NCBI GenBank assembly: GCA_015179125.1
Contig: WHVA01000499.1
Coordinates: 1 to 64,000 of the forward strand
Source of the DNA: Gautieria morchelliformis
Lineage: Eukaryota; Basidiomycota; Agaricomycetes; Gomphales; Gomphaceae
Direction: 5' to 3'
DNA: 64,000 bases
In this document: positions 6,821-31,410 of the stretch, piece after piece
Layout of the letters: each line of letters opens with the position of its first letter
How positions within the stretch are numbered: position 1 is the first letter of the stretch
Program-made: the position numbers and the translations under genes
Notes under the pieces: model-generated
What the model saw: the letters and a program-made list of their open reading frames with translations, nothing else
The model's database searches: none
Told to the model about the DNA's origin: nothing

Positions 6821-7091
6821 CAGGGCTGTCCACAAGTCCAGGTTCCTGCAGGTGACTCGCAGTTCAACCTGCGATTTTCACCTGCAGATCCAACTCCCAC
6901 AAGTCCTTGTGATGCGGCACCTAAAAACCTGCCAAGTCTAGGTTTGGCCTTTGGAATTCCACAGGTGACTCACAGACCTGCAAGCCTTAAATGCCAAGAA
7001 TTCATGTCATATGTCATTTACATGACATTCAACTACTATTACCTCCTTCTGCACAACAGCCTTCTTGACATGCTTACTCTTATCATGCAGC

Positions 7092-7580: not shown

Positions 7581-8315
7581 GCAGCAACTCTACAACACAC
7601 TCCTCAGGAACAAGTCCATTGTAAGACAGCCATGTGGTGAGTACAGTTCCAGCACGTGTCAACTCTTCCTTCAGATAGTGATGCATCCGTGATACAGTCA
7701 GTCAGCCCGGACTGAATGCATGTTCGACATCTGTGCATGTTACTAGAGGAGCATGGTCAAAATAGGATGTAAGGATGTGTGAAATAGCTCACCCGGAATA
7801 GATAAGAAGTCTAGGGCCATCTGTGCGAGACAGCTCCCATTCTGGATAATCCATGACCAGTGGTTGACGGGATCAGTGACACTGGCCATTGGAGGGGCAG
7901 CAAGATACTCTTCAAGCTCATCAGCACTGTGATTGATTCCCAAGCTCCGAACGGAGTCAAAGTATTATGATGGCTGGGTCTAATTTCAGGCTGGTATTAC
8001 ATAGAAACCATGAATATGTACCGTCGTACTGGGTGCTGACAGCACTGCAGGAGCCAGCTTGTAGTGATCATGCCATTCACTCCGAAGAAGTTCAAGTGCC
8101 GTGGAGATCCACTCCTCTGGCCATTTGGCATGTTGGAAATACATCATTCTGAACCGGGGATTGAGCACTACAACAGGTTGAAGACATGGAGACAAAAGCG
8201 AAAGGAACTGACTCATTGCAATTCGGAACAATATGGACTCATCTGTTAAGCCATAATACTTATTGAGCACTCACCGGCCATGGGCAGCAGCAAGACGAAC
8301 AGCTGCATTAATTTC

Positions 8316-8743
8316 TGTAGAGGACAGGAATTATAGGCAGTAGGTTCGGACTTGGTGCTCAAAAGAATGGACTAGAAATTAATTCACTCTCTCAGTGAAT
8401 TTAGTTGTCACTGAGAGAGGAGGGAAATGTGTCTCATGCGCATGTACTACTAGCCGGCGCTTTAGCGCCCGTGATGCCACGGTGTGCCATGATAAGCGCC
8501 CATACAACATAGCACGGTAGTGAACAGCCGCAGCTCAAAAAGGAAACTTGTCCACAACCACCCACAAAGGGTCGGTTGGACAGAACATGAAAAGAAGTAG
8601 GAATACAGCTTCGAAAAATCAAAGAAAAATTTGACAAATCATGGAATGAATGTCAGCAGATTTTCAGGTCAAAATCAAAAGAAATCCGAATGGTGGAATC
8701 TATTTGGCTTGATTTTGGTGCAGGAGCATAAATGCACCCAACA
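8316..8743 (-). repeat. Solo Copia LTR (family 1), near-TSD ATTTC/AGTTC
   Basis: The 428-bp LTR has upper end TGCACCCAACA and lower end TGTAGAGGACAGG. Flanks ATTTC (8311-8315) and AGTTC (8744-8748) differ at one base. It interrupts the hAT transposase. Its middle differs from the other family members and resembles the remnant at 13204-13388. Confidence 0.85.
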
Positions 8744-10519
8744 AGTTCCTCATTTGTCACAAACCGATCAAGGGCCTCACTGAGGCTATCCATGTATGGA
8801 ATCACACTATGTAACAAAGGGACTCTGTCCTGCTGAAATATGTCAGTGGCTTTCCAGAAATGCTTTGATATGTCAGTGATCAGTATGATAACAAGATCAA
8901 GTCACCTACATCAAGAAGGGGGAATACTTGTTCAAATATCATCCAGTCCGAGTCATCTATCTGATAGCGCCCCAGTCGAACACCCTTTGTTTTGTTGTGC
9001 CAGGGGAGGTCACAAAGGTTTGTGAGTGTGGGCTGCAGATATATCGCACGCTCAATTGTTGCAGTGACTGAATTCCAGCATGTTTCAATGGCGCGAATTA
9101 CCATTTGATATGCTATTGGTGGGTCCTGTGATTCACAGAGACTTTGGAGGTCCTGACACAATGTTGGACTGTGGAATATTCATTTAGTCAAACCCTTGAG
9201 CTAAAATGGCCTCAGTGAGAGGCCGGGAACCCTAGCTAAGTAATGAGAACTCTACCTTGGCCAGGCAAAGCTGTCCGGCACGAACGTCATCTTCTGCGCT
9301 CGCAGCAGCCTCAGAATCCTCATTAGCAGCAGCATTGATGACTTCGTTGTCATGAGACTCACAGTCCGGATCTATATCCTCAGCTGCACTGAGGTCATAT
9401 TCATCTTCCCCTTCGAAGATGCCATCGAGGAGCGTATTCAGCTCCTCATTGGATATTTCCCCATTGACCTTCTTCACTGCAAAAGGTGACAAAACAGCCT
9501 GGCCATTTTAAGCAGGTGAACATTGCATAAGAATGAGAGGGCTACCTTGACCATCAAAGACACCATGAATGGTAACCCCGAGGAAAGAAAACACATTGGG
9601 GGACATCCACCCATCCACCCCAACGTGAAGCTTACCCAGGTGACCCTACCCAATATATGTGCACATCAGAAAGGTCCTGCACAAGACCACGACCACTTAC
9701 CTGAAGCATAGCCTTCACATGGGCCATGGACATCGCATGGATATCTATCACATCATGCGAGACCGTCTGTTGGCTCGGTATGGTGACATGTGCATCCAGC
9801 ATCTCCCAGGTTGCATGCAATTCCTGGTTATCCACAATGGCGTATGGGCAATGATGATGCACACACCAAGTAGCTATCAAGTAGCAGAACCTAGCCACAT
9901 CGTAGGTGGACCCGTGTGAGAACGCAGCCATTGCTGTGGACTCAGGGCAGTCAGGAGGTTGACACACCAATATGTGCTGCTTGAGGTTCGACGTTCCATC
10001 ATCCACGCAATCATGCATGCAGGTTTTCGAGGGGAATCTGCAGAGTAACATGTATGTGAATCCATCATCAATATCAGTTCAAATGAAACCATACCTTTTT
10101 CAGTGAAAAACATAGGCAACCCGGCCGGCTCCAGTGGTTGGAATATCAGGGGGAATCAAGAAATGGTTGTAATAGCTGGAAGTCCAGCTTTTGACCTGTG
10201 CAGCTGCAGACAATAAAAGAAGGGCTCTATCGAGAGACAGACGAAGAAGGAGCATACCTCGAATCGTCAAGTCATTGGTGTCAGCCCACCTTACCACGAA
10301 GGCGGTATCTTTTGCCGCCCTGGTCCTTCCACCAATGGGCAGGGATTTGGCTGGATGACTGGGCAGCAAGGACCACTCTATGATAGCAACCGTCGTGAAC
10401 TTGGCACCCAAAGAGGAAGCATGCAAGCTGGGATTGGCTGACTCTGTGCGTTTTTGTTTAGCAGAAGTTGGCATTGAAGCGGGACACTTGGGCAAGGGCC
10501 TTGTTGAGCATTGGACTCT

Positions 10520-11010
10520 TTAACAGAGACCTGAAACACACAAAAAAAAAAACAAAAAAAGACGCACAAGTAGAGAAGTTGCTCATCTCATGTATCTACG
10601 AGCAGTGATGTACCAGCTTGACCTCCTTGACTACTAGACAGTTAAATAAAGACCTGAAACAAGAAAGAAAAAAAAGCACTGGTAGAGAAGATGGTCAGCT
10701 CAGATATCTGCGAGCAATGTTGTACCAGCGTGACCTCCTTGACTACTAGACATTTGAATGAAGACCTGAAATACAAAAAAAAAAGAATGTGCACTGGTAG
10801 AGAAGACAGTCATCTCAGGTATCTGCAAGTATGCCGGTTCCTCCACAATGGATTACAGGGTTGACTTTCTTGACTACTAGACAGTTGAATAGAGACCTGA
10901 AACACAGGAAAAAAAAAAACATGAACTGGTAGAGAACTCGCAGATCTCAGGTGATCTGTGAATATGCCTGTTCCTCCACACTGATGTGGCAGCGTTGCTG
11001 CCCAATGATT
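10520..11010 (-). repeat. Four tandem units of about 120 bp upstream of the hAT transposase
   Basis: Units begin (minus strand) with a T-run ending in TTTCAG, followed by GTCT and GTCTAGTAGTCAAG, and close with TTCTCTACCAGTGC. They repeat about four times just upstream of the predicted transposase start. Each unit looks like a 3' splice site followed by a short exon and a GT, so the array may be a duplicated intron-exon unit in the 5' leader. Confidence 0.7.
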
Positions 11011-11066
11011 GACCTATGTAGGGCCATCAGTTGTGCAGACTTGTGAGTCTGAACAGACGCTGACTG

Positions 11067-11535
11067 TGTCAGGGGACACCCTGTTTTCCACTTCCAGTTC
11101 CGACACCACACCCAGTTCCGACTCCGCTTCCGGTTCCGATTCCATCTCCGCCTCTGCTTTCGGAAATGATTCCGCTTCTGGGAGAACTTCCACCAGTTCT
11201 GTTCGCCTCGCCAGTTCCACTCCAATTTCTGACTTCCACTCTCGGAACAGTGTCAGAAATCAAGCGACTCACGTAATAGGTGGCATCAAGGGTCGATCAA
11301 GGGTCAGGGAGATGCAGGGTTGATGGCGGGTGCCAAGTGTTGTCCCTGGCTGCGCAGCGTAGTATAATACGGGCTCGCTGACATTGGGGGTCCTTAGACT
11401 TTTCTCTTTGGATTTCCCCTTGTCAGGTGAGAATCCCCTCTCTTGTATACTCTGCTCCTTTATACATACTTTGGATTTCCCCTTGTCAGTTGTGTGGTAG
11501 TGTGATCTCCACAACCAGCCAGGGTTGCCCTTACA
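11067..11535 (+). repeat. Solo LTR of the chromovirus family, TSD GACTG
   Basis: The 469-bp LTR starts TGTCAGGGGACACC and ends GCCCTTACA. GACTG at 11062-11066 and 11536-11540 is an exact TSD. It is the same LTR family as the chromovirus 3' LTR at 23242-23665 and the solo copy at 54035-54497. It is rich in TTCCGA/TTCCGC hexamers. It is inserted in the hAT near its 11811 end. Confidence 0.93.
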
Positions 11536-11811
11536 GACTGTTCGTATGATCTGCACCCAGCCAGGGACATGGGCAGTATCTTTCCATGGAGCAGGGTGGT
11601 CTGCGTGGGAGGAGACACATCCTGCACTCGCATGGGGTGACTCAGCTCAGAATAATCTGGCGAGTCACCGTGAGTCACCCGCATGTTTAACCTGTGGGTC
11701 CGAGTCAACCTGCAGAAAAAATCAGGTCAAGTCCAGGTTCCACTTCTGGAAGCTGGCAAACATGTGAGTCCAAGTCCAGGTAACCTGCAGGTTGACTCGT
11801 GGACAGCCCTG

Positions 11812-13388: not shown

Positions 13389-13768
13389 CAATATACATGT
13401 CTCCTTTTTTGAGAGTGTAGTTGGCATGATCCTTAAACCGTAGTTCCTGGTCAATGATGACCCCCAGGAATTTATGCATTATTGTGGGCTTGATGATGCG
13501 CTGTGGTATCTTCATAGTAGGCCTGGTCATTGGTCTTTTTTTCCTCATCCTATGGGGCTCCCACTCCCGCCTTCTTGTGAGTCCCATGAGTCGGAATTTT
13601 TCCACTGTGAAGCTGCACTGGTACTGCTTGGCCCAACTGCTGGCTCTGCCAAGCCTATTCATGAGATCCATCAGTGTGGTGTCATCAACAAAACTGACAC
13701 AGTCCTCCCCATTTGCCCTCCTGACTATGTTGATCAGATGAGTGTTATAGAATTGATGCACTATGGCA
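13389..13768 (-). mobile_element. LINE ORF2 block 3a: RT catalytic FVDD region
   Basis: The minus-strand frame encodes the RT segment with the active-site FVDDTTL, then KFRLMGLTRRR, KFLGVIIDQELRFKDH and KKGDMYIV. This is the region after RT motif B in Tad-like LINEs. It is joined in frame to 29398 (through the hAT) and to 11859 (through the Copia LTR). CTATGGCA at 13761-13768 is the hAT target. Confidence 0.92.
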
Positions 13769-14358
13769 CAGGGCTGTCCATGAGTCCAGGTTCCTATGGG
13801 TGACTCACAGTTCAACCTGCGATTTTAACCTGTGGATCCAACTCCCACAAGTCCAGGTGACCTGGCACTTAAAAACCTGGCAAGTCCAGGTTTGGCTTTT
13901 GGCCTCAATTCTCTGAAATGCACATGTCCACGACCTGCCAAAATTGCAAACTGCTCATGACGCAACACTCACGACGCGCCATTCCGAGTCTTGATCTTCC
14001 GCCGGCTCTCAATTCCTGTGTTTATAGTGATGACCGTCTACAATTTATTCTTTGGCGGTGAGGGTTCAGATGGAGGCTTGTGGGAAGATAGTCTGGGAGC
14101 AGTGGTATACGCATGGCAAGTGTCGGTGATCGTTTAGGTGGTTGTACGGTGATCATCAACGCTATATTCAGCCCCGGTGTCTCAACCTCCTTCTGTGCAG
14201 CCCACGGGTTTCCGGTCTCCACCGGACTTGATGGTGGTCTGATCATTGAACGCTTCAAGACACGTGACTTGGCATAGACCCATTCTGTTAACTATACTTG
14301 TCTATGGAATACACCTCTTTGAGGAGAACAGGGCCGCACCAACGCTGGTGCATGAGTC

Positions 14359-15664
14359 TCAGGCCGTTATGCCCTCACGCTGTAACTCATCCACAAGTGG
14401 AACAGTTACGTTTTCTCGGCGAAGGGAAGCATCCTGATTTGGGGCGTGGACTTTGGGGAAGAGAGGCACTAGCCTTGATTTTCTTATCTGGGGGCCTTTG
14501 CTCCCGAAATAGCGTCCACTCTCGAAATTCCAACAGTCGTTACATCGAGGCCAATTTGCTAGACCGTATAAATACTGCTGAACCTGTCGATCCATCTCAG
14601 GTCCCCAGGATGGTACGCGTTTCAGGCCATCCAGGAATTTTGTCTCGGTTTCGGCATGGCGGTTGGCGACCCATGCCATGGCACCATTTGTATCTATATT
14701 GTATTCATGCATGGCAACAGTGATGATATTATGGCGGTCATCTCCGGTTGCCTGTTCTTTGTTGTACGAAGCAATGTCCTAGATCGCACGGACTCAGTAG
14801 TGAGACAGCTGGACGAAACCAGAACTCACATTACCCAAAATAATCAAGTCAGCAATATAAATGGACAATTCGACGATAACGGGGTGATAAAAGACCTCGT
14901 CGGGTAGGTCAAGATCCAATTCCATTGGCACGTAGGATGGTCTGGCTCCAATATTTTCTCGGCGGTTTTGGAAATAGGAATCGATTGTGCGGATCGTATT
15001 GGTGTCACGATCAATGGCTTGTTGAATGACAGATTCCAGATATGCGGTGAAGCTTTCGACCATGTGCCTCTGAGAGGTAGGACTGGCCGTCTTGATAGCT
15101 AGCTTCCAGAACCTGCATATATCTGTGGGTATAGATAGTTTATTGGCAAGTAAATGGTACTCGCTGTTGGGCCACTACACCGAGGACAATCTCTCCTTCA
15201 GGGCGAGATTTATGGGGGTTATTCAATGCATCGATAACAATTTCCGCCATCCCACGAACGACAGAGGCAGGCTCCACGTCCGTGTATTCGTCAATGACGA
15301 AGAATAAATTCATCAAGTCGCAGCCTGTCCGGAGGTGTTCTGAATGTTGAGATCGAGAATCATTAGCTTGTACGATCAACAGTTCGCGTGGTATTACCTT
15401 TAGAGACCCACGGATAGGCGAGGGCCGCAAGTCGAGCTATTCATAATGGTATCAATGATATCTTATGAACACAGAATGCAGCGGCCTACCGAAGTCACAT
15501 TTATCAAACGCTCGCTGAGACCGCGGACTAAAAGCGTTAAAACTCTGAAACCAGGCATTGCTTTGAGCCTTGACTTCTTCATAATTAGGATTAATAGCTC
15601 TTGGCCAAGGCCAATTCGCCATAGTATCGGGAAGATAAAGCATCTGTACTTGACTATCCTGCAT
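14359..15664 (-). CDS. Sesquiterpene synthase (protoilludene synthase-like)
   Basis: Five exons are read by eye: 15664-15490, 15436-15398, 15339-15165, 15112-14830 and 14778-14359. They total 1092 nt, 363 residues plus stop, with no internal stop. The product is a class I terpene cyclase that ionises farnesyl diphosphate with bound magnesium. The metal motif DEYTD lies near residues 88-92, the NSE motif NDIASYNKE at about 224-232 and the RY pair at about 313-314. [14 protein letters not shown] near the start and [15 protein letters not shown] before RY fit the basidiomycete clade that includes delta-6-protoilludene synthases. Product identity is inference. Introns are GT-AG except the third, which needs a GC donor (GCGAGT). 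The ATG chosen is the first in frame. The gene lies inside the hAT at 13769-29397, 0.6 kb from its left end. Retained introns argue against retroposition. Confidence 0.9.
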
Positions 15665-17326
15665 ATTCAAGTTTGGATTGAAGGGGCCTTCTGGAGATGT
15701 GAGGAGGCCGTAAATGTGACGGAGATAGTATGGGGAGAGGAACCATTATATATTTAGTATTCCATATACTGGGACCGCATGGCTGAAATCGGGGTAAAGT
15801 CGGTAGCAGCCTGAGGGTTCTGAGCGTGAGGCTTTGAGGAACCATCACTGATATGATCAAGGCCGTTGGTATACCACTCTGAATAATCGACTTATCTAGA
15901 TTTAGAGTTGAGCTCAGTCGGGGTAAACGACATGACTGCGGTGCCAGCGATCTCATCAGTCGCTGGCGCAATATTACTTCCGCGTTGCTTGCCATCAGAC
16001 TGGGTACCGTGGACTTGCAGGATAAGCACCATCTTTAGGGAGCATCGTTAGAGAACGCGCAAATACGAAGCTTGTCGATTACATAATCACTGAGGAGTGT
16101 GTATTGTGTAATATAGGGTGCCTTTACGGATTATGTTTCTTAGTAATCATATTTTGTGAGCGCATGATAATCCGTCTTCTTACGTTGCCTCTGGGTGGTT
16201 CAGTGCAGCTCAATTTTATTCTCTTTATTTTCACTAATGTACACCTGGAGTTGGGGGATGGCGCACCAGTGACGCTACAGGATCACAGTAACGATGGTGA
16301 GAAATTCAATTACATTGGAGGATTTGAACATTTCTCCTAGCATTGGTGACGCTCATGCGACCCAGAGAATGCAAGCAATGTACTTGTAAGTAACACGTAA
16401 TCGAAGAAGTACTAAACACTGGAGTTGGGGAACTAAGAATACTTATGCGTTGTAAGTACCTTCAGGTAATCAATGATTTTCAGGGCTGCAGGATTTCAAG
16501 GCAAACCATTTATATTTTGGAGGCGTTAACGCGTTATAATAGTGGCACGACAGCTGTAGCCAACTGCAGGCTCAGGACTCGGGATGGGCTCAGTTCGAAC
16601 GGTTCTTCAATTCACCTGCGCGCTCCCAACATTTCAACATGTGAAACAGCCCCTGAGTAATCAGTGTTTGGCTGAAATGGCACTTCGGGGCGCATTGTAC
16701 TCAATGCGATGTCCTCAGGTAATTATAGACGGTTCCCCAGGTGGATCATCACACCCTGCATGGCCGCATATATCCACAGCACCTGCCATCAATCAAACAA
16801 ATACTCTGGATATCACAGCATCGGCTTGGCACACACTCAAACTCTTCCGTACCAATTTGGTGGTTCAGCAAAGCGTCTAGAGAGGAATCAGATTCCCGAG
16901 AGTACTGTTTTTGTGAAAGATATCAGGAAAATACATCAGGAAACACCAACCTAGCAGCCAGTCCGAAAATACTGTAAGTAGCCAGCCAGCCGTACGACCA
17001 GTCATACAGTGAGAGTGTGAGACGCTTAAAACCGACCACTCGGTCATAGGCGCCACGCGGATTGTATCTCGTCCTTGGATATTTAATTTAGTCACTCCTG
17101 AAGTGGTGGAATCTACTGTGATGTTATCTAGAAGTGTATTTAATTACTTTTTCAAGATTCCAATGTTTACCCAGGGACCCCACCCAAAATTTGGACTTTG
17201 AGCGGAGATGTCGGGGCTTGGTGTTAGCCGAGTTGGCCAATCCTTGCCGGTCGCCGGCGGTCACGGAGTGACGCTGCCATGTTGCTTCTGCAGCACATAA
17301 CAATTGTGTAAAATACATACCATCTA
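15665..17326. other. Flank of the terpene synthase, no assigned gene
   Basis: No domain is recognised. A minus-strand frame (15654-15995) directly upstream of the synthase may be 5' leader or an unrelated reading frame. Plus-strand frames at 16104-16977 overlap each other and show no family features. This stretch, with about 300 bp downstream of the synthase, would be the non-repetitive part of any captured host segment. Confidence 0.4.
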
Positions 17327-17329
17327 TAT

Positions 17330-17903
17330 CACCGGAGACATGGCAAAATTGCCTGACTTTGAAAATCCACTGGAAATTCTGAGGATATTCCACATTTCTT
17401 CAAAATTTCCCTATTCAGGAAATTGGATGAAAATTTATTGTTTTGTCAGAGTTTTTTGGCATCAGGAAATCCTTCAAAATTTGTACGCTTATCACCTCAA
17501 AACCTTGAAGAAACCCTAAGGAAACATTGAATTTCCTCCTCTATGAAACTAAATATTTAATCAAGTTTTCTCAGTTTAGAAATTCTATGAAAACATTGGT
17601 TTCCTGAATATTTGACAGAGGAACTCTGTAGAAATCAGTGTTTCTACAGAATTTCCTAACTGGGGAACTTCATTAAATAGTTAGTTTCATAGAAGAGGGA
17701 ATTCAATGTTTCCTGAACATTTCTTGAAGATTTTTAGGTGATAATTTTACAATTTTTGAAGGATTTCTTGAAGCCAAAAAACTCTGACAAAACAATAAAT
17801 TTTCATCCAATTTCCTGAATTGGGAAATTTTAAGGAAATGTGGAATATCCTTAGAATTTCTAGTGGATTTTCCAAGACTGTAAACTTTACTATGTCTCCA
17901 GTG
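17330..17903. mobile_element. CACTA-like foldback element 1, TSD TAT
   Basis: The 574-bp element is nearly one long inverted repeat. The left arm starts CACCGGAGACAT and the right arm ends ATGTCTCCAGTG. TAT flanks it at 17327-17329 and 17904-17906. CACT/CACC ends plus a 3-bp TSD suit the CACTA (EnSpm/CMC) superfamily. It has no coding capacity. Two relatives lie at 55467 and 57356. Confidence 0.85.
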
Positions 17904-17910
17904 TATGAAG

Positions 17911-19180
17911 TGTTAGGATTATGTGCAGTAGCTATGTAGTGATAACTACACAGGAGTGAGCATCGGTATGTGATGATGTACAGAAACTGGTGCGCATCTC
18001 AGTGAATGGGTAATTCACTGAGGAGCCACTAACTACAAGTCCAGTTGATATATCAGCTCGGTCAACTATGACCAAGACAAGTATGAAGATATGAGTCCGG
18101 GTCGCGGGTTGCCAGCCCTGGCCCTGCATTCCATGCTTATCCATACTACCTCCAACACTCCCCCTTAAGCATAACGCAGTCCCACCATGGCATTCAGGTG
18201 TGAGACCTTATGGTGCGGAAGAGCTTTTGTGAACATGTCGGCAGCCATATCGTCCATCAGGATGTAGTCGACATGTAAGAGTCCCTCCCGCGTGGCATGG
18301 CATATGAAATGATAGTGTATGTCAATGTGCTTCGTCCACTGGTGGTATTCGTCATTCTTCGTGATGGAGATGGCTGAAATGTTTTCTAGGTGGATAGTAA
18401 TGGGTTTCTCTAGCGGGCATGCATTGTCGGTCAAAAAGGCACATATCCACAGTGCCTCCTTTGCTGCATGAGTTGCGGCAATACACTCAGCCTCAGTTGT
18501 AGATAGTGCAACAATCGGTTGCTTCTTAGAGCTCCAGGAGAGTATGGTGAATACGTACCTGGAGATGGACAGGCGGTGCTCTTGGGACACCCAGTCCGCA
18601 TCTGAGAAGGCCTCCAGGCCGCTCTGTGAACTGCCAATGAGGAGCCACATGTTCATGTGCCCTTCAGGTAGCGGAAGACATGTTTCACCGCCTCCCAGTG
18701 CGGTCTTCCTGGGTTCGGCATAAATTGTGCCAGCATCGACACAGCAAATGATATGTCTGGATGCATGCCCAAGGCCACGTACATGAGTGACCCGATGGCC
18801 TCTCTATATGGTACATTGCACATGTCGTTGTACTGGCAAGGTGTGGAGGGGGACTGGGACAAGGATAATCGGTGGTGGGGATCAAGCCGGGTGCCAAGCG
18901 GGTTTGTGTCCTGTAGATTGAATCTCTCGAGTATCTTTTGTACGTATGCACGCTGTGAGAATGAAATCGTGCGTAGTGTCACCTCTATCCCCAGCAACCA
19001 GTGTAAATCCCCTATGACCGTTATCTTAAGGACAGTGCGCAGCTTGTCCTTGAACTGCTGGATCACCTCCTTCGAATTGCCAGCCATGGTCAGGTCGTCG
19101 ACATCTACTGCGACGATGAGGACATCCTGGCCAGCCTACCTATGGAATACCGCATGCTCGACTTCGCAACACGTGAATCC
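17911..19180 (-). mobile_element. Copia element A, 3' part (RT end, RNase H, LTR)
   Basis: The minus-strand LTR at 17911-18157 (247 bp, starts TGTTGGAGG, ends CCTAACA) is preceded by a purine tract. RNase H lies at 18165-18656 (FSDADW, ALSTTEAECIA, WTKHIDI). The end of RT with VDVDDLTMAG lies at 18653-19180. The 5' half is missing; the element meets Copia element B near 19181. It is an old fragment with few visible breaks. Confidence 0.9.
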
Positions 19181-19885
19181 TGTCAAAAATATATACGTCG
19201 CCCCTACAGCACCTCCCCATCCTGACCCACACTTCACACACATGCCTACACCAACCACCCGATCCCCACCATCCCACACTCGCCTCCTCAGTTCCACACA
19301 CGCCCATAAAGCCCACATACACATCATCCTGGAGAGCCATGGATCGGCAGTCGATACATCAAACCACGGGTACGTCCCCGAACCTGAGTACACCTGACCT
19401 GTGGAGTAGCATGATGGCTAGCCCACCGGCCACTCATATTTCTCTTCTTTTTTTTTTTTCTTTCTTCCATATCACTCATTTCTGATGTCCACACCATATC
19501 CCACGCCTCCCATTAGATAGACAGAGTATATACACATTCTGCAGTAACTGGCACACAGAACCCCGTAGCCTAGTCCCCACACCCACACCTTCACACGCCG
19601 ATTAGGCCTATCCATTCTAGCTCACTCCACACAATAGTTAAAAACTGCCATTTGTACAGTACATTCTCCAGTCAATTGAACTCACCCTCTCACAAGAACT
19701 TGTTTGCTTTGACCAATCTACCGGGGTATTCTCCATCAGTCTTATACACTCTCCAGAGAAATCTTATAGACCTATATCCTTCGAACAAACTCTCGATTCA
19801 GCTTCACTTGGAAGCTTGAATCATATACCTATCACAACTCAAACTTAGATATCTTCTCAGATTAAAACACTCACTGACCTCCGCC

Positions 19886-20910
19886 ATGGCTCAAGCAACG
19901 GCATCGGCTCACATAACTCCAAAACACGACATCCACAAATTCCGAGATATAAAACTGAAGTTGGGGAAGGGCAACTGGATGTCCTGGAAGAGGGAATTAT
20001 TAGCAATGGCCAGGGACAGAGGACTATACAAGATCATCACCGGTACAGACCCTTACCCTACCGCCACTAACCAGCAGATCACCATCAATGGCGCCACCTT
20101 AACACAACATCAAGACGAATGGGATGACAAAAATAACGTCACTTTCAGCCAGATACTACTCTGCATATCGCCGGAGCTCCAAACGGCAATCGACATGACC
20201 GAAAAGTGCGAAGAAGCATGGAAGGGTCTGACAAGAAAGTTCAAATCCACCGACCCGAGCACAATCAGCATAGTCAGGCCCAGATACAGGAATTACCACA
20301 TGACTGAGGGACAATCGGTTTTGGAATACATCACTGTGATGAAGGAATACAGAAATCAGTTGTCAAAAATGGGTGAAAACATAGCTGACTCTACTCACGC
20401 CGCTACTATCCTCAGAAACGTGCCAGAATCCTGGAGGTCTATAGCGCAAACCATAGGCATGATAGAAACAGACCCAGATGAAATCAAAGAGAGGTTGGAA
20501 GCTCACGAAGCAGACCTCGGAGCCATTGAAGTATCCACGCAGGCCGCCATGGCATTCATTGCACAGTCCAGGCTGCCGAGACACCTCAACAACCCTGTCC
20601 CAAGAAAGATCAGCAACAATGCACCCACCTATGAAAACAGACCCTCACAACAACCAAGCTACGGAGGGGCAAGCTTTTATTGCAACAACTGCGGGAAGCC
20701 CAACCACTCGGCAGCTAGATGCTATGCACCAGGCGGCGGACTCACACCCCAGGGATCATGGAGAAAAGGGGAGAACACTCACGGAGGAATAACCAGCAAG
20801 AGGGAACAAGACGGGCAGGGCAGGCTGGCCCCACCCCCACAGCATCAGCAACTGGGAAATGCCAACTCGGCCAGACTCGCAAACATACCGAGAAACGATA
20901 TCATTATGAT
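19886..20910 (+). CDS. Copia gag (nucleocapsid precursor) of element B
   Basis: The frame opens at an ATG just after the LTR leader and is open for about 340 residues up to the inserted LTR. The UBN2-like gag core has KLGKGNWMSWKREL, LCISPELQTAIDM and AWKGLTRKFKS. It is followed by one zinc knuckle, CNNCGKPNHSAARC, near residue 265. It is the packaging protein of a virus-like particle in this family. A diverged relative is at 35590-36063. Confidence 0.88.
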
Positions 20911-21980
20911 TGTTGTGATACACGCAATTATTCTATTCAAAGTCATCTATATATATACAAAGAAAATAATAAAAGAAAAAGAGAGAATAATCAACTAAAA
21001 GGGTAGGAACAACACTCACGACAGACATTGACATATACAGACAACAGACACATGACATCACGAACAGCTATCTTATCTATAGATCAGATAAGATACAGGA
21101 ACAAGAGCATCAACCACATGCCGCCGATCAGAGATAGCACACCTATCGACTGATGGCATCAGCCATGACGTTGACAGGTGCCAGGCCACAGGCACCAAGG
21201 AGGTGCGGGCACCAAATGCCGCAGAGGAGCACAGACTGTGCAGGAGCACCGGATGTCATGGAATGACTACAGAATGTAATTCCAAGTACGTGTGTTCAAT
21301 CAGCTGCCCCATAGAAGAGGCACAGAGACAGCGGCCCCATCACCAAGACTAGCATTTATGCTACACAGGAGGGATTTGATTTCTATTTTCTATTGAGCTC
21401 CATGACACGACCAGCTGACTACTATCTTGACACCATGTAGACAGGGGCTTTGTATAGTAGGTACAAGACTCCATTCCAAAGCTTAACACCCCTGACACTA
21501 TCCCCATCACTCCCATGGCTTTATGACTATAAGTAGTCACCCCTCTAGTTATACATAGTTTTTCCACCCATTAACTCACTATCTCGAACACTAGTAGTTA
21601 CCACTAGTATAGTATAAGTAGCTACCACGAATTTATGAATCAAACCATCCAGAATCAACTGTTTCACCCCCTGAAGTCACTGTAGTCTTGTTTGATAGCT
21701 ACAGAACTTAAATCTTGATAGTTTACTCCAATTCTTCGTTGAGAGTCTACTATTATTGTTTACTCTAGACTACCTCAAAAGCGAAGCCTTTTGATATAGT
21801 TATCCTCTAGATCAAGACGATTCTCTCGTCGACACGGTCACGTGACCTTCATCCATCAGTGCCGGACGCGCCTTGGAAGGCTTAGTCAACACACAGGAAA
21901 AGGCCAGATATAGCGGTCCCAACCACTGAGCAATAGAAACCCTTTGTCAAAGGTATTGATCAAAAATTTTCATCATAAAC
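20911..21980 (+). repeat. Solo LTR, TGTTGTGATAC family (copy A), TSD ATGAT
   Basis: The 1070-bp LTR is inserted in Copia element B. ATGAT at 20906-20910 and 21981-21985 is an exact TSD. It starts TGTTGTGATACACG and ends ATCATAAAC. Related copies are at 36066-36913 and 41369-42426, with a tail fragment at 26232-26346. No coding region belonging to this family was identified. Confidence 0.85.
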
Positions 21981-23241
21981 ATGATGGAGCATATTGAAGA
22001 GAAAACTAGTAACATTGTCCTATCCACAGACACGTGAGCATTATCGGCCATAGGGGATGACATACATATGTGGCTCATAGACTCGGGGGCATCCAGTCAC
22101 CTGTGTGGGAATGTTGAGCTATTCGAGGAGCTACACCCAACGGCCACCATATCAATCGAGATGTCCAGCGGCGACACATTCAACGCCGATCAGAAAGGCA
22201 CAATCCAGATTACAATCCAAAGTGACGCACATATGAGAATCCCACCACTCGCCCTCACTCTCACAGATGGCATCTTGGTGAATGCAAACCTCCTATCTGT
22301 AGGGCGAGTAACCTCAGCTAATGTTGACATAATCTTCAGCAAAACAGATACTTCCCTTCTGATGGACGGTGAAGCAATATCCAGGGGAATGAAAGTCAAC
22401 AACCTCTTCACCTACATGGCTCAGCCATCGATGAAAACAGGAAACGAAACGGCAGCCTACTCAAATGAACCCAACAAGCTCAACCTATGGCACCACAGAA
22501 TAGCACACACCGCCATATCAACAATCAAGATGATCCAAAAGAACAGACCGGTGTAGGGATCCCGGAGGTTAACACAAGCCAGACGCCAAGTCCATGCGCT
22601 AACTGTCCGTTCGGGAAACAGACTCGATCCCTTTTCAAATGCGTTCAGGAACTCCCGAAGAGCACAGGGGAGTTAATATCCTTGGCCATATGCAGTCTGT
22701 TTGAAACATCACTAGGGGGCTACAGATACTTCATCACCTGGATCGATCACACAACAATATACGTCAACATCGACTTCTGAAGAACAAAGAATGCGGTACC
22801 ATCACAAATTCCTTCAAGAACTACATCACATGGCTAAAGAAACAGAGAGGAGAGGACATAAAGAGGATCAGAACAGATAATGGAGGGGAATACATGGGAA
22901 GGGAATTCACCGGTCTGTGCAAAGAACTCAGTATTATCCATGAAACTACTATGCCTCATCCCCTGACCACAACGGTGTAGCAGAGCGATGTAACAGGACA
23001 CCGCAGGAAGGCATGTTGACACTACAAAATGACACAGGATTAACGAGCCGCTTCTGGGTGTCAAGCACACACACCGTAAATTTCGTCAAGAACCGACTGC
23101 TCCACCACAGACTCAATAGATCCCCATACGAAGCACTCTGGGGCACAAGACCCAGACTCGACTGGCTGCGCATATATGGGTCAAAGTGCTGGCTATGATA
23201 CCCAAAGCTATCAGGAGGAAGGGAGAGTTCAAATCAGTCGA

Positions 23242-23665
23242 TGTACGCAACCCTGGCTGGTTGTGGAGATCACACTACCACACAACTGACAAGGGGAAAT
23301 CCAAAGAGAAAAGTCTAAGGACCCCCAATGTCAGCGAGCCCGTATTATACTACGCTGCACAGCCAGGGACAACACCTGGCACCCGCCATCAACCCTGCAT
23401 CCTCCTGACCTCCCTGACCCTTGATCGACCCTTTATGCCACCTATTATGTGAGTCGCTTGATTTCCGACACTGTTCCGAGAGCGGAAGTTGGAAATTGGA
23501 GTGGAACTGGCAAAGCGAACAGAACTGGTGGAAGTTCTCCCAGAAGTGGAATCCTTTCTGAAAGTGGAGGTGGAGATGGAATCGGAACCGGAAGCGGAGT
23601 CGGAAATGGAGTCGGAACTGGGTGTGGTGTCAGAACTGGAAATGGAAAACAGGGTGCCCCTGACA
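23242..23665 (-). repeat. Chromovirus 3' LTR
   Basis: The 424-bp LTR starts (minus strand) TGTCAGGGGCACCC at 23665 and ends at 23242. It matches the solo LTRs at 11067-11535 and 54035-54497 closely. The GGAA/TTCC hexamer array occupies about 23480-23650. Confidence 0.88.
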
Positions 23666-23769
23666 TCACCCTCCCTCTAGCATGCTGCATCCTCGAAGCA
23701 CGGGATATGAGGGATTGAAATGCCAGTGAGCGGATTCGGTGAGGGGCACCAGGGTGTGTCCTATAGAAC

Positions 23770-23970
23770 TTGCAGAGTTTGTCTGGAGCAGAGACATCTT
23801 GCTCCGGGACCCATGAATTTTCCTCATACCCATACCCTTCCCATTTCACGAGGAATTGGAGTCGTCCTCGCACAAACCGGCTGTCCAGGATCCATTCCAC
23901 CACATAGTGCTCTTCTCCATCTACGATTTCCGGTGGAGGTGGCAGACGAGCCTTACGACCTGGAATTGGG
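23770..23970 (-). CDS. Chromodomain of the chromovirus integrase
   Basis: Within the frame 23445-24332, residues read HYVVEWILDSR, then FLVKWEGYGYEENSWVPEQD. This is a canonical chromodomain with its aromatic positions (Y, W and W) in place. It follows an integrase C-terminal region with YQVGDKVYL and LPSQKLAHCYLGPF. Confidence 0.9.
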
Positions 23971-26231
23971 TCCTCAAGCGTAGGGAGTAACTTCACCACG
24001 TTGAAGACAGGGTGGAGGCGGGACATGGACATTGGGAGTCGGAGGCAGTATGCATTCCATCCAACCCTCCGCATCACTGTGAAGGGCCCAAGGTAGCAGT
24101 GGGCAAGCTTCTGCGAAGGAAGTGTGGTGCGGATATCACTTGCATCTAGATACACCTTGTCTCCAACTTGGTACTCTGGGGCAGGAACCTGACGTTGGTT
24201 GCAGTACCTTGCCATGTCATCCTTGGCCTTCACAAGGGCTGACTTGGCTTCTGAAAGGGTGGAGTCCATGCAGTCTCGGAACTCATTGACTGTCTCGAGT
24301 CGGGACTCTGCCTGGCGTGGCTCGAAGCCCATCCGCGGGTGTCATCCAGAGTCAAGGATGAAGGGAGTCTGTTGTGTGGTGGAGTGTACATGGTTGTTGT
24401 ATTGGAATTCCGCCAGTGGAAGTAACTCATCCCGGTCATCCTGCCTCTCATTGACAAAGAGGCAGAGATATTGCTCCAACTCCTGATTGACCCGTTCCGT
24501 CTGTCCGTCACCCTGTGGATGGTACGCTGTGGTGGTAGCCAGCTTTATGCCGAGCAGGCGGTAGAGCTCCCGAGTCAGTTCCACGACAAACTGCGGACCT
24601 CGGTCGGAAACGACTTGCTTCGGGAGCCCATGCAACTTCCAGACATGCGCAAGGAACAGGCGGGCCGCTCTGAGGCCTGTGATCGTCGTGTGCGTTGGAA
24701 TGAAGTGGGACACCTTGCTTACCGAGTCCACGACGTTCATGATTGCGTCGTAGCCATGGGACTCTGGGAGTTCAACGATGAAGTCAACACTGATGGTGTC
24801 CCAGCGGGATTCTGGAATCGGGAGTGGAACTAGTTCTCCGACGGGCGGATGTCATTCTGCTTTGGTTCGGAGACAAAGGTCACATGTCGTCATGTACTGT
24901 CCAATGTAGCGGGACATCTGAGGCGACCAGTAGTTCCGAGCCACTAACTCCAGTGTCTTCCACCTGCCAACATGCCCAGCGACCCGTGTGTCATGGTGCT
25001 GGGACACAATGCGGCAGCGGAGATCCGCCCCACATGGAACATAGCCCTTGCCTCTGAGGTGGAGCAGCCCATCACATTCCGACCATTCCACTGCCCACAC
25101 AGACCATGAGTGCCCTTTCCGAAGTTCCTCCACCGCCTTCACCACCGACTCCTGCTTCTCTCCATTCCGGTACTGCCTCCAGATGTCCCGGAGCATTTCC
25201 GCTTCCGCCCCAACTGCAGTGACTCCTTCGAGGGCGCGGATTGCAAAGAGACCTGGGCGGAGCAATGTCATATCCGCGTTGTCTCCGCTTCCGCTTCCAT
25301 GATCCGCACGGCGGGATAGGGCATCGGGCTTGCCCATGGTGCGGCCGGGGTGGTGGTGGAGCATGAAGTCGAACCGGGACAGGTGTAGGGACCACCGTGC
25401 TTGTTGTCGGTTCAACTTCTTAGACGTGCAGAAGTACTCGAGGTTCTTGTGGTCTGTCCAGATCTCAAACAGGCATAGAGGCCCCTCAAGGAAGTGTCGC
25501 CACTCCTCCAGCACTCACATGATTGCCAGCATCTCCTTGTCGTGGATCTCATAGTTCCGCTCGACCGGACTAAGGCTTTTAGAGAAGAAGGCAATCGGAT
25601 GTCACCCCTCACCATCTTCCGATGACTGTTGTGACAAGACCGCTCCGGTAGCTGTGTCGGTAGAATCCGCCTTGACTCGGTAACGGTGAGACTGGGGCAG
25701 AAGTGATCAGCTCCTTGAGTTTGTCAAAGGAGGCTTGTTCAGGCTCTCCCCACCACCATCCAACCTCCTTCTTGGTGAGGTCGAAGAGGGCATGGGTGTG
25801 GCAGGAGAAGTCCTTGATGAACCGCCAGTAGAAATTGACAAACCCAATGAAGGACTACACCTCCTTCTTGTTCCGTGGCACATGCCAATCCGATACACCG
25901 GAAACTTTGACCGTGTCCATTTCCACCTTTCCTTCTGACACAATCACCCCAAGGTACTCTATCCACGTCCGCTCAAATTCGCACTTTTCTGGCTTGAGAC
26001 ACAGGTTGTACTCCCAGAGCTGTTCCAGCACTCTCTGCACAACCTCCCAATGTTCTGACATAGTTTTTGTGAAGATGAGGATGTCATCGAGGTAGACACA
26101 GACAACCCCTTCTGCTATCATGTCACGGAAGATGTCATTCATCATCGTCTGGAATGTGGCAGGACTGTTGGTGAGGCCAAAGAACATGACCTGTGGCTCA
26201 AAGAGTCCTTGGTTGGTGTGTAATGCGGCCT

Positions 26232-26346
26232 TACACGCCTCGGAAGGCTTAGTCAACACACAGGAAAAGGACAGATATAGCGGTCCCAACTGCTGAGCAA
26301 TAGACACCCTTTGTCAAAGGCATTGATCTAACATTTTAATCATAAA
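26232..26346 (+). repeat. Tail fragment of the TGTTGTGATAC-family LTR
   Basis: This 115-bp stretch matches the last part of the LTR at 20911-21980 (GGCTTAGTCAACACACAGG through AATCATAAAA). It abuts the cut edge of the chromovirus. Confidence 0.8.
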
Positions 26347-26691
26347 AATGTGAAAGACAGATGCATATTTTTTCACTTACTAGTAGTAACAAAGACATGT
26401 AACCACCTGTCTATTCTGGGTAAAGAGCTGGCTCCAGCATCCCCTGGGAAGCGCCCAAAAGCCATGGCTTTGGGGCCTGGCTCCAGCTCTCTGGATTCAG
26501 GGAGGGGCCCTCAAAGCCAGCCCCATAACGGCTTGGGCCCCTCCCAGCTCGGTCTTTTAGCGGCCCAGCTTGGACTAGGCTGGGGCTTTAGCCAGGACTT
26601 GGAAACACTAGTTGTGCTGTCCCATGACTCCACTCCTAAGTGGAATTAGGGTCAGAACTCACTGCCAAGTTGAAGTATTATTGGTCCAAAG
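26347..26691. other. GC-rich spacer with AGCCC/GGGCT words
   Basis: No gene is seen. 26407-26600 is rich in GGGCT, AGCCC and GGCCC words, like subterminal sequence of some non-autonomous transposons, but no paired ends were found. Confidence 0.35.
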
Positions 26692-27445
26692 TGTTGTGAC
26701 TCAGGAAATGACTCCTGCATGCCTCAGAGCCTGATTTGGCCCATGACTCATGCTTGGACTCTGGCGTATCATTGGTTGAGGGGCCTCTTACCCAATGAAA
26801 GGCTGTGTTGAGCTAATCCTGTTTGAGAATAAGGGTGTATCTTATTCTTAGATGTGACTCATGCCTGACTCACTACCCCCTTTCTACATGACTCAGTGCA
26901 TGACTCACTCCCTGATCATGGGCTGTGATTCGTCGACATGAGTTCTGACTCATTACCCTTTTTCACTCTGACTCACTACCCCATTTCTTCATGACTCAGT
27001 GCATGACTCACCCCCTAATTGTGAACTGCAATTGGCCAACACATGCTCTGACTCACTACCCTTTTTCTCAATGACTCACTACCCTATTTCTTCATGACTC
27101 ATTCTAGTCTATTAATAGATAGTTGATACAATATAAAAGGAGGCCTTACTGCCAACCTTTCATCAGCCAATACATCATCATCTACTATCCTCGTACCTTG
27201 TGTGACTTGCCAAGCTTACTAAGCTGCTAACCCCAGCTAGGTTATTACACTTACTTAGTGTATTAATTCTCAGTTAAGTAGTTGCTTTTCTACTTAGCCA
27301 CCCAGACTAACACTCTAGGTGAAATTCTGCAGAGTGAGTCTGACAATTGATTTCCTTGTCAATTAGCTCTCCAAGACCTGAGATGAACTGATCAGTGACT
27401 TTCCTGTTCAGTGACTTTCACAAATCACTTCTTAAACCCTAGTCG
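26692..27445 (+). promoter_or_regulatory. Putative LTR/promoter with 13 TGACTCA sites and a TATA box
   Basis: From TGTTGTGACTCAGG at 26692 to about 27110 there are 13 exact TGACTCA heptamers, the bZIP (Gcn4/AP-1 type) consensus. A TATA-like ATATAAAAGG follows at 27130-27139. Parts form a roughly 120-bp duplication (CATGACTCAGTGCATGACTCA occurs near 26890 and 26995). The layout resembles a U3 promoter, but no matching 3' end or TSD was found, so calling it an LTR is inference. Confidence 0.55.
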
Positions 27446-27976
27446 CTTGTTTATTGCAGTGCATTGATGTTAATTGGGTCAGTCCACTTACAAACTCTCC
27501 TGTGAAGCCATTCCTAGCTTTTTGGAATACTTGGACCCCAATGGTCATCCTCAAACTTACAGACTAATAGTTTGTTATTCATTATGCCAGTTGTGTCTAA
27601 TATTCTTGCAGTTTTGTATACGACAGTTTCTGATAGCCCAAAGGGTTAGCTCTGACACCAAAGTCTTGAAGGGTTCCAAAACAGTATTCTGGGGACAGTC
27701 ATGTGACCACTCTGAATGTCACCACCACACCCATGTGCCAGCTACCACCATGGCATGTGACATCGCTGCCTACCCACACACCACCACCTCCACCACCACC
27801 ACCAATGCACCTCGCACGGGTAGCAGCCACCACCGCACTCACCTGCGCATGAGGGCGTGCGTGGGCAGGGGACGAGAAGGGGGACAGGGACGGGGACTGA
27901 AGGCAGTGTGGCGAGGTGTGTGGGTGCACCATGTGCAGGCATGGTAGCCACCACGGCATGCACCCACGCACGAGGG
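27446..27976. other. Low-complexity CCACCA/GGTGTGTG stretch
   Basis: No gene is supported; the 157-codon frame here is driven by CCA repeats. The last 110 bp (GCGAGGTGTGTG, GTAGCCACCAC) is similar to 28889-29020 on the other side of the Copia LTR. It is probably a tandem duplication that predates that insertion. Confidence 0.5.
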
Positions 27977-28888
27977 TGTTGGGTGCATATATGCTCCTGC
28001 ACCAAAATCAAGCATAATATATTTGATTCATTGTGTGGTGTTCCAATTCTTTCTCACATTGTTATTGTACCATGCATACATTTCACTGATTATCTTCGAA
28101 ATTTTCTGATCACTCCTTATCTTTCTATTTCATTTTGTTTTCTTTATTTTCACAGCCTGCTCCATCCAGCGGAGATTTAAATGGCTTCAACACGCGAGCT
28201 CATGGGCGCTAAAGAGCCGGGTGTGTTATGAAGTGAGGATCATCCGGCATTTTTCCTGTTATTTCTACCATTTTTCCTAGCCTTCTAGGTAGTATTCTTC
28301 TGCTTGTTACGCTTGTGTCACCTGTCACCATTGCTAACACCGGTGATTGCCATTCCGGTGTTCCACAACGTTCTACCGGTTTCCACCCCTACGACCGTCA
28401 TATACAAGTACTAGATCATTAGTTACAAACAATCCAATGGTTTTAGCCCATCGCTCCCATGAGGAGTCCAGTTGTTGAGCTCTGAGTTAACAGTGTCCTC
28501 ATTGCTAGTGTTTCGGTTTGTTCTCGTTGTCCTGTGCCATGAGATAGGCTATCCTTCCCTTACTCGTGTTCGCATTAGCTTGTGTTCTCTTATTCCGGCT
28601 TTGTTCGTCACAGCGATGCCAATCCTTCTCATATACCAATTACAGGGTGGAGGTATATGCATTCTGAGACAGCATAATGCTCCTCTCTCAGTGACAACAA
28701 ATTCACTGAGAGAGGCGAGTAGTATTCTTTATTTCTTTTATAATATGTGACCCAAAATCATTTAGTGAATTTGATTCTAGGTATTGTATTAATATAACAG
28801 TGATAATAAATTCACTGAGAGATGAATTTGATTCTAGCTTTCTAAAAAGTCCACAGAACCTTCCCTGGCATAACCCAAGTTGCTAACA
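27977..28888 (+). repeat. Solo Copia LTR (family 1) with nested LTR, TSD GAGGG
   Basis: It starts TGTTGGGTGCATATATG and ends TTGCTAACA. GAGGG at 27972-27976 and 28889-28893 is an exact TSD. It is about 486 bp once the nested Gypsy-like LTR (28224-28644) and its duplication are removed. It carries the CTCTCTCAGTGA hairpin near 28682. Confidence 0.92.
28224..28644 (+). repeat. Solo LTR, Gypsy-like, TSD GGGTG
   Basis: The 421-bp LTR starts TGTTATGAAGTGAGG and ends CCAATTACA. GGGTG at 28219-28223 and 28645-28649 is an exact TSD. It is inserted into a Copia LTR that is itself inside the second hAT inside a LINE, so four layers are visible here. Confidence 0.92.
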
Positions 28889-29397
28889 GAGGGAACCCCT
28901 GGACAGGGGGTGAGAATGGGGATGGGGTCAGGGATGGAACAGTGAGTGGCGAGGTGTGTGAGTGCAGGGTGGCAGCCACCACCACATGTGCCTGCACACA
29001 AGGGTGCATATCTTTTCTTTGTATTGGTCTTTCATGTATCTTTCTGTAATCAATATTGTTGACATGATGTCTGCAACATGCCATAAACTGTGATCTTTGG
29101 TTTGGTTTTTTAAAATGAAAAAATGTCGCCTGTGTCTTTCCATGGAGGAGGTGTGTCTCCGTGGGAGGATATGTGCGCATGGCCAATGTCATGCACTCGC
29201 ATGGGGACATGAGAAGACTGAGGTGAGTCAGCTTGGGATAATCCAGCAAGTCACCTTGAGTCACCTGCAGGTTTAACCTGCGAGTCTGAGTCAACCTGCA
29301 GGAAAACTCAGGTCGAGTCCGGGTTCTGCTTCTGGAAGCTGGCAAACCTGCGAGTCCAAGTCCAGGTATTCTGCAGTTTAACTCAGGGACAGCCCTT
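28889..29397 (-). repeat. Right arm of the second hAT
   Basis: The last 260 bp aligns with 11560-11811 of the first hAT (TCTTTCCATGGAG, GCACTCGCATGGGG, CTGGAAGCTGGCAAAC). It ends with the inverted terminal repeat. The first 130 bp is the GGTGTGTG-type repeat also seen before 27977. Confidence 0.85.
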
Positions 29398-31190
29398 CTA
29401 TGGCAGAGATGGGGCATCCTTGGTCCATCCTCTTGCCAACCACCTTTGCTGGTGTGCTGTAATCATCGAAGTTAACAATGGTCTTCCTACCCTCTTCTCT
29501 CCTGCAGAGCCATCTGGTATATTCTTTAGGTATTCCCCTGTGCCACATGTTATGTATGAGTAAGTATAACAGTATGCTAGGGAAGGCTTCCTTTATGTCT
29601 GGAAAAGCGGGTCTAGTACCTTCCCCTTTCTCTATGCGTCCTTCATTGTCCTGATGGTGTAGTGCTTTGCATCTGTTGTCATGTGTCCCAGTCTACAGCC
29701 AAAATGGTTTTCTGGCAATAGTTGGTGTCTCTCCATCATTTTGACTATGTCTTCTGCAATGCACACTGACAGGACTTTTCCTATTGTATATGGCAAGGCA
29801 ATGGGTTGGTAGGAGCCTGGTGTTGTATAGTCACTTTTCTCTGGCTTATGGAGTACTCTGGTAACTGAGTCTCTCCATTCAGCGGGGTACGTGTCTGGCT
29901 TGAATGTGACTTGATACAGCAGGCCTATATATGGTAAGAGTGTGTCAATGCACTGCTTTATCATGACATTTGGGATACTGTTCGCCCCCAAGGGCCTTGA
30001 AAGGATTGAGCTTTTCCACTGCTCTCCTAACTTGGTCATCTGTGATTGGCACATACTCAAAGGCCAGCTCAGGGTACTGGTAGTCAGTCAGGATGGCATT
30101 GCTATCCACTCTTGACTATGGGAAGAACATGTCAAATACCATGTCAGCCTTCTTCTCATTGGTGTCTGCTACCCATCAGGTGCCATTGCTCTGCTTGGTT
30201 GTCAATGTTAGGATGTGGGCTCTTCCACCATCTGTAGCATCCGCTGAGGCATACCTGTGGGCTGTCCATACAGTCTTCTAGTCCACCTCCTCCAGAAAAG
30301 CCTCTCAATGCTCCTGTTTTGCTTTTTCTATCGCGCTCGCATATCGGTTCCTTGCTACCTTGTATTTCTCGTGTGCTGCGTCTGTGGGCTCATTGCGTTT
30401 GGCATATGCTTTCCTTCCTAGTCCTCTGGTTTCTGCTCTAATTTTGGTCAGCTCCTTTGACCACCATCTTTTCATGTAAAGAGATGGCTTAGTCTTAGGT
30501 ATGAGACTTCCGACTGTCTCTGCAATGGCCGCTGTGAGAACCTCTAGGTGCTGGCTGAACTGCATGGCACCTACCGGTACAGGCTCACTGATTCCCTCCT
30601 TCAGGTGAGTGTCCAGCTCCTTGTTGAACTCTGCCCAGTCAACCTGTCTAAAATTGTACTTCAGAGCATATGTGGCTGCCACAGGGGAGATGTCAATGAT
30701 AGTGTCCACCAGGAAATGGTCGCTCTTCGCCAGTTGGTCTTCTGGTACCATGCAGCACCTGACAAGCAATTCTACCATTTCTGTGGATAAGAACACGTTG
30801 CCAGACCGTGTGTGGTTACCTGTGGCCATAGCTCTTAGTGTGGGGATAGCCTTTTGCAGCACCATCTGCATGTCACACTCCACCAGAGCATTGAGCAAGA
30901 GGTGCACCTCATCCAGGTTGCTGCAGGTGAATAGGTGTGAGTTCCGAATTTCATCCCACACTGGGTGGTTCCGATTGAAGTCCCCCAACCAGATGCTTCC
31001 ACAGACATCTTCTTCCTGCACCTGTTGATCTTTGGCTCTGCTCTGGAGGTATTTCTGTAAATGCCTTATGCCATCAGAGTGCATGCAGTCCCAGTGTATG
31101 TTGAACAGAAGAACAACACTGCTGTCTGTCTTTATTTCCATCGCCGTGATGTCCGGTGACCCCACATTCACCGCCGCCCATGTAAGTGTT
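29398..31190 (-). mobile_element. LINE ORF2 blocks 1-2: endonuclease and RT (Tad-like)
   Basis: 31240-30305 encodes the C-terminal half of an apurinic-type endonuclease (SIWLGDFNRNHPVWDE, then SDHFLVDTIID) followed by a linker. 30060-29632 encodes RT with TFKPDTYPAEWRDS, VTRVLHKPEKSDYTTPGSYQPI and HFGCRLGHMTTDA. By 29398 it reaches RMDQGCPISAI, RT motif B. The frame then continues at 13768. The endonuclease N-terminus is missing because Gypsy sequence replaces it near 31190. There are at least two frame disruptions inside this block. Confidence 0.9.
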
Positions 31191-31410
31191 TGTTGATGAG
31201 CACTTGAACATGGGTTACATTCGGCCCACTCAGCCTTCACATGGAGCCCATATCCCCTTTTTCAAATAAAGAGCGGTGAACCTTGGCTCTGCATCGATTT
31301 CACAGCACTCAATAAGATTATGAAGAAAGACCGCTATCCACTCCTGTTAATTACCGACTTGTTTGATGCCCCCCAAAAGGCTCAGATATACACCAAAATT
31401 GACCTTCATC

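Follow-up and report, generated by a model that had tools for sequence, protein, structure and literature searches.

How does a complete-looking metabolic gene come to lie between the two ends of a DNA transposon? The question is raised by the basidiomycete Gautieria morchelliformis (assembly GCA_015179125.1, contig WHVA01000499.1), in which positions 1 to 64,000 were analyzed (hereafter the window: 46.6% GC, zero N, and rich in repeats). Here a sesquiterpene synthase gene is enclosed by hAT-A, an element with terminal inverted repeats (TIRs) and a target-site duplication (TSD), which itself interrupts a long interspersed nuclear element (LINE). An initial annotation proposed that the hAT had captured and moved the synthase. 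The analysis confirms hAT-A as a single hAT-type element, and shows that it inserted into the LINE. Carriage of the synthase to that site inside hAT-A is the best and simplest reading, and one that we hold to be somewhat probable.

The two copies of the hAT-A TSD, CTATGGCA, are identical at 8/8 positions, and the terminal 11 bp (left, CAGGGCTGTCC; right, as reverse complement, AAGGGCTGTCC) agree at ten of 11. A second element, hAT-B, which the initial annotation missed, provides a control. Co-oriented with hAT-A and 1,957 bp to its left, it has a TSD of its own, GCTGTTGT (6813-6820 and 11812-11819), that is likewise exact over 8 bp. Two of the four possible flank pairings across the ends of the two elements are exact, and both cross-pairings score 0/8; by arithmetic, the chance of an exact 8-bp TSD is 4^-8 per pairing. 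The 11-bp end motif by itself is no rarer than chance when up to one mismatch is allowed: five matches in the window compare with a shuffle mean of 2.56, and 14 of 100 shuffles reach five. The evidence for the hAT ends is therefore carried by the TSDs and the common termini. (The only full end matches in the window are the four outer ends of hAT-A and hAT-B; the fifth match is found beyond hAT-A, at 37743, and differs at one position.) Together, these results confirm the claim that 13769 and 29397 are the two ends of one hAT-type element.

The target of the insertion is equally legible. Removal of hAT-A and one TSD copy joins 13768 to 29406 and reconstructs the empty site, in which a single 236-aa open frame runs through the junction on the minus strand. 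This frame matches RVT_1, a reverse-transcriptase (RT) domain, over residues 29-157 (E 1.9e-8, 34.7 bits, cut-off 29.6), with the junction near residue 96; the separate pieces at 29408-29692 and 13348-13767 give no match, either one alone. The RT domain of the LINE is whole only in the rejoined empty site. (The element is called a LINE because of this restored domain and of an upstream Exo_endo_phos_2 match that stays below threshold, E 0.00021.) Insertion of hAT-A into the LINE, producing the 8-bp duplication, is thus shown. LINE coding does resume on both sides, as had been stated; farther upstream the frame is broken, its main open pieces (31261-30308, 30087-29635, and 29692-29408) lying in two frames.

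These observations also bear on a mundane explanation, in which assembly joined unrelated contigs somewhere between the two ends. The region is rich in repeats, which speaks for such an error, but a misjoin is not expected to yield an exact 8-bp duplication together with an RT domain that only rejoining of the ends makes complete, and the window has no N. We consider an artefact very improbable.

The termini common to hAT-A and hAT-B extend well beyond the TIRs (Table 1); on the left, the similarity fades between 13903 and ~13950. hAT-B confirms the ends of the family independently of the synthase-bearing copy. Its minus strand contains an open reading frame (ORF) with a sub-threshold match to Dimer_Tnp_hAT (E 0.0059, 16.8 bits, cut-off 21.4; E 0.084 in a read-through frame). 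hAT-A displays two hallmarks of the hAT superfamily, the 8-bp TSD and short TIRs common to its family. Assignment to hAT is based mainly on this TSD and the form of the TIRs, with weak support from the hAT-B domain match.

Inside the termini, the two elements have little in common. Their other strong DNA similarities are long terminal repeats (LTRs) of two retroelement families, and the remaining rows are at chance level. The TSDs of the Copia LTRs differ between the two hATs: GAGGG for the hAT-A copy, GCAGC for the hAT-B copy. (In hAT-B, the Copia and Gypsy LTRs are solo; their 5-bp TSDs are GCAGC and GACTG, respectively.) At the protein level, 134 hAT-B ORFs of at least 25 aa were compared with hAT-A by tblastn (E up to 0.01). 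Termini or LTR stretches contain 46 of the 51 resulting rows, four straddle their edges, and the remaining one is a weak match of 24 aa (E 0.002) in a Gypsy remnant. Six-frame Pfam searches of 13903-18160 and 26228-29397 (E up to 0.1) found no hAT domain in hAT-A; for 18161-26227, Pfam was applied to eight longer ORFs only. No hAT transposase belonging to hAT-A was detected in the parts scanned, where sensitivity for a decayed one is low. hAT-A is best explained as a non-autonomous member of the hAT-type family to which hAT-B belongs.

The enclosed gene comprises exons of 175, 39, 175, 283, and 420 nt, or 1092 nt encoding 363 aa with zero internal stops. A Terpene_syn_C_2 match falls inside hAT-A in one frame (114.4 bits, cut-off 23.7). 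The best solved relative is the delta-6-protoilludene synthase 8h72 (E 1.1e-111; 161 of 333 aligned residues, or 48%, are identical). Three catalytic motifs are present: DEYTD at residue 88; NDIASYNKE at residue 224; and RY at residue 313. These we take to be the aspartate-rich motif, the NSE motif, and the RY pair. Judged by sequence, the gene encodes a complete-looking class-I sesquiterpene synthase. The five exons and the motifs reported earlier thus stand. Completeness is a more delicate matter: introns 1, 2, and 4 are GT-AG, whereas intron 3 (15164-15113) is GC-AG, with its donor at 15164. Completeness depends on splicing of this intron, because its retention stops the frame seven codons past the split codon. 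The GC donor may be a tolerated variant or a first damage.

Is the gene otherwise decayed? Four solved relatives agree with one another in 49 columns; the synthase keeps 43 of these, departing at residues 111, 140, 147, 190, 254, and 308. Leave-one-out scores for the four relatives themselves (43/46, 43/57, 43/52, and 43/55) are comparable, so the synthase looks no more decayed than the solved enzymes. A neutral-decay model, with assumed transition and indel rates and with any splice-site change scored as damage, gives the joint survival of intact frame and splice sites as 0.22 at 1%, 0.048 at 2%, and 0.0006 at 5% divergence. The model weakly supports recent arrival or constraint; the argument is weak because the rates are assumed and because one donor of the actual gene is the non-canonical GC, which is a mark against it.

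Just upstream of the synthase start (~15,670-16,050, minus strand) are coding-looking peptides, one of them in frame with the synthase ATG. In a search for a second host gene, two such peptides and the neighboring ORFs gave no Pfam match; the peptides are possibly the remnant of a neighboring gene taken along. Relatives of the exon-5 piece (139 of the 363 aa) were not found among IMG/VR and GTDB contigs, nor was the hAT-end pattern found in IMG/VR, these collections being without fungi by design.

Table 1. Features of hAT-A, its LINE target, and its sister element hAT-B (window positions; a strand is given where one is assigned).
Feature	Positions	Strand	Remarks
hAT-A	13769..29397		15,629 bp; TIR and TSD; encloses synthase
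Left TSD copy of hAT-A, CTATGGCA	13761..13768		8 bp
Right TSD copy of hAT-A, CTATGGCA	29398..29405		8 bp
Sesquiterpene synthase gene	14359..15664	-	exons 15664-15490, 15436-15398, 15339-15165, 15112-14830, 14778-14359
LINE reverse-transcriptase segment downstream of insertion	13390..13768	-	edge 13390 placed by eye, beside LTR end
LINE segment upstream of insertion	29406..31261	-	sub-threshold RVT_1 and Exo_endo_phos_2 in single ORFs
Left terminal region common to hAT-A and hAT-B	13769..13902		86.6% identity over 134 bp
Right terminal region common to hAT-A and hAT-B	29132..29397		~265 bp; 84.3% over 178 bp, plus 38-bp block farther in
hAT-B	6821..11811		4,991 bp; perfect 11-bp TIRs (11/11); possible decayed minus-strand transposase; nested solo LTRs
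Nested palindromic element resembling a miniature inverted-repeat transposable element (MITE-like)	17330..17903		238-nt arms, 87% complementary
Nested Copia remnant	17911..19135	-	LTR-like stretch ~17911-18157 (edges by eye) and RVT_2 fragment
Nested Copia remnant	19820..22777	+	gag, Pol_BBD, weak gag_pre-integrs
Nested truncated Gypsy chromovirus	23247..26313	-	RT, RNase H, integrase, chromodomain; one LTR-like stretch
Nested solo Copia LTR	27977..28888	+	5-bp TSD GAGGG; interrupted at ~28223-28645

Did the synthase arrive with the transposon, or did it join later? The initial annotation had named other boundaries, with a TSD of their own around the synthase, as the observation that would speak against arrival inside the hAT. 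Such boundaries were sought by scanning for any TIR (at least 9/12) with a TSD of 5-10 bp bracketing the synthase, the right side extending to 29380. As positive controls, hAT-A and hAT-B themselves were both picked up. Around the synthase the scan returned four weak candidates, each with three mismatches, as compared with one to seven per shuffle in ten shuffles; none beats chance. (An earlier, tighter scan, with the right side to 17480, gave zero candidates in the real sequence and zero in each of six shuffles, and so was without power.) Comparison of 13903-17329 with the rest of the window, hAT-B included, found no second copy and only one 22-bp match (E 0.053).

Other kinds of boundary were rejected as well. 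A retrogene origin is ruled out by the four introns. An LTR pair flanking the gene is not apparent either: direct repeats within 13769-17345 reach at most 26 nt, at 73% identity (among the 20 largest of 24 families). Helitrons lack TIRs and TSDs; one hairpin with a CTRRT-like site to the left of the gene, at 14239 (plus strand), would, as a 3' end, belong to an element extending away from the synthase rather than enclosing it, a result obtained without shuffle control. No element edge or repeat is recognizable anywhere between the left hAT end and 17329, a stretch that includes the synthase.

Internal replacement is typical of non-autonomous hATs. This, together with the lack of any boundary that beats chance and of an element edge from the left end through the gene, makes carriage the simplest reading. 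The interior of hAT-A would have been replaced by host DNA: the whole synthase with its introns; ~0.4 kb downstream; and up to 1.7 kb upstream. If the gene was captured, its source was genomic DNA rather than mRNA, because four introns remain. A hAT transposase supplied in trans by an autonomous relative would then act on the common ends and move the package into the LINE. The retroelements and the MITE-like element could be later insertions into the package, or filler brought along. Capture itself might proceed, by analogy with plant hATs, either through faulty gap repair after excision or through joint mobilization of the outer ends of two neighboring copies.

The latter route leads to a particular version of events, in which two neighboring copies of the family flanked the synthase and its nested retroelements, and their outer ends moved everything between them as one unit. 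This macrotransposon is a route of carriage, and so overlaps the best explanation rather than opposing it. The interior of hAT-A is indeed large and of mixed content, and co-oriented hAT-B, so close by, shows local clustering. Joint mobilization has been proposed for Pack-TYPE elements of maize and rice, and 12 of 15 local maize hAT pairs are co-oriented (PMC8903248). A maize Ds-Ac macrotransposon mobilized as much as 100 kb, mostly nested retrotransposons (PMC3260210). Against this version, no internal hAT ends were recognized in hAT-A, and inward of the termini its DNA resembles that of hAT-B only in LTRs or at chance level. A macrotransposon is possible, if on the unlikely side.

Several points weigh against carriage by any route. 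The window has a single cargo-bearing copy. hAT-A, at 15.6 kb, is large for a hAT, though it amounts to ~5.7 kb without recognizable retroelements. (Subtraction of ~17319-26350 and 27977-28888 leaves this length, similar to the 5.0 kb of hAT-B.) The transposase candidate of hAT-B itself is sub-threshold (E 0.0059-0.084), so that a decayed transposase in hAT-A would be easily missed in such scans. The boundary scans are blind to entry mediated by recombination, and the TIR scan to elements with a TSD shorter than 5 bp. Finally, truncated retroelements in the interior make rearrangement after insertion possible.

This last point underlies the opposing explanation, in which the hAT reached the LINE without the synthase, and the block entered later through ectopic recombination, gene conversion, or repeat-mediated rearrangement in the interior. 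The truncated Copia (17.9-19.1 kb) and Gypsy (end at ~26.3 kb) remnants have no visible partner LTR within hAT-A, which shows breakage and loss. (For the Copia remnant, no second LTR was found within the window.) However, later entry finds no recognizable element edge or repeat between the left hAT end and 17329. Moreover, sequence internal to the hAT would normally be expected on the far side of the block; none is recognizable, and a decayed one could be missed. We judge later entry unlikely, and prefer carriage inside hAT-A, which the evidence favors and does not demonstrate, given one cargo copy and a rearranged interior. The restored RT domain and the tblastn rows leave our leaning unaffected, because neither bears on the time of synthase entry. 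No full LTR pair usable for dating was seen inside hAT-A.

How does hAT-A compare with known systems? Host gene sequence between transposon TIRs, the defining trait of Pack-TYPE or transduplicating elements, is present. Transduplication by fungal hATs is documented for histone H3 in Pyrenophora tritici-repentis and Pseudocercospora fijiensis (PMC3538342, PMC6710886). Like hAT-A, these are fungal hATs whose TIRs enclose a gene derived from the host, and the TSD in P. fijiensis is 8 bp long. Unlike hAT-A, they are multicopy and carry a hAT transposase or domain, and the P. fijiensis H3 copies are intron-less and were inactivated by RIP (repeat-induced point mutation; PMC6710886). hAT-A, in contrast, is present in one copy in the window, has no detected transposase, and bears cargo that keeps four introns without a stop. 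In rust fungi, hAT7 elements carry TET/JBP dioxygenases (PMC12730594), again a fungal hAT with an enzyme gene other than transposase. These elements make a 7-bp TSD, and their cargo has been suggested to aid the transposon in evading silencing (PMC12730594), whereas a terpene synthase offers hAT-A no evident benefit.

Plant hATs provide further parallels. Maize Ds and Ds-like elements carry pieces of genes with introns, and the filler of a compound Ds consists of retroelement and transcribed sequence (PMC3260210). They resemble hAT-A in their short common termini, foreign interior, intron-bearing genic DNA, retroelement filler, and TSD; their cargo consists of gene fragments or transcripts of unknown function, as opposed to the complete-looking enzyme gene in hAT-A. 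Pack-hAT and other Pack-TYPE elements, surveyed in plants, are likewise non-autonomous, contain host coding DNA, and occur as locally clustered and mostly co-oriented copies of one family (PMC8903248). Among basidiomycetes, Pleurotus ostreatus has Helitrons with captured genes (PMC4289320); these are also transposons with extra genes, but of the rolling-circle type, unlike hAT-A.

The initial annotation had called capture and movement of a secondary-metabolism gene by a hAT notable in fungi. This claim of novelty is weakened by published cases of host-gene capture by fungal hATs (PMC3538342, PMC6710886, PMC12730594). Carriage of a terpene synthase by a hAT or other DNA transposon did not turn up in a literature search, which was not exhaustive and included passages of PMC7232245. 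hAT-A stands apart in that its cargo is a metabolic gene, complete, intron-bearing, and free of stops, in an element with no transposase detected.

The scatter and multiplication of terpene synthase genes in fungi are mostly attributed to duplication. If carriage is true, a cut-and-paste element bearing a whole synthase together with its upstream region would offer a direct route for the spread of such genes, and the cargo captured by fungal hATs, so far intron-less or selfish, would come to include an intact metabolic gene. A bolder version is conceivable, in which a terpene synthase gene that is complete, has introns, and is expressed from its own promoter travels in a fungal hAT, copied or relocated by transposition, and in which the pair with co-oriented hAT-B may form a larger mobile unit; we regard this as unlikely.

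Some minor observations concern the repeats and the surroundings. The second Copia remnant inside hAT-A is interrupted by a repeat (20910-21979) with further copies at 36066-36913 and 41370-42427. Clusters of TGACTCA/TGAGTCA occur at 26,697-27,101 (13 copies, inside hAT-A beside the Gypsy remnant) and, far outside, at 1,688-1,904 (seven copies). Cytochrome P450 fragments (PF00067) lie in two frames at ~50,800-51,500 on the minus strand, ~21 kb outside hAT-A, with no sign of linkage to the synthase. At ~45,490-46,060 on the plus strand is a DDE_Tnp_4 transposase, presumably Harbinger-like, split over two frames.

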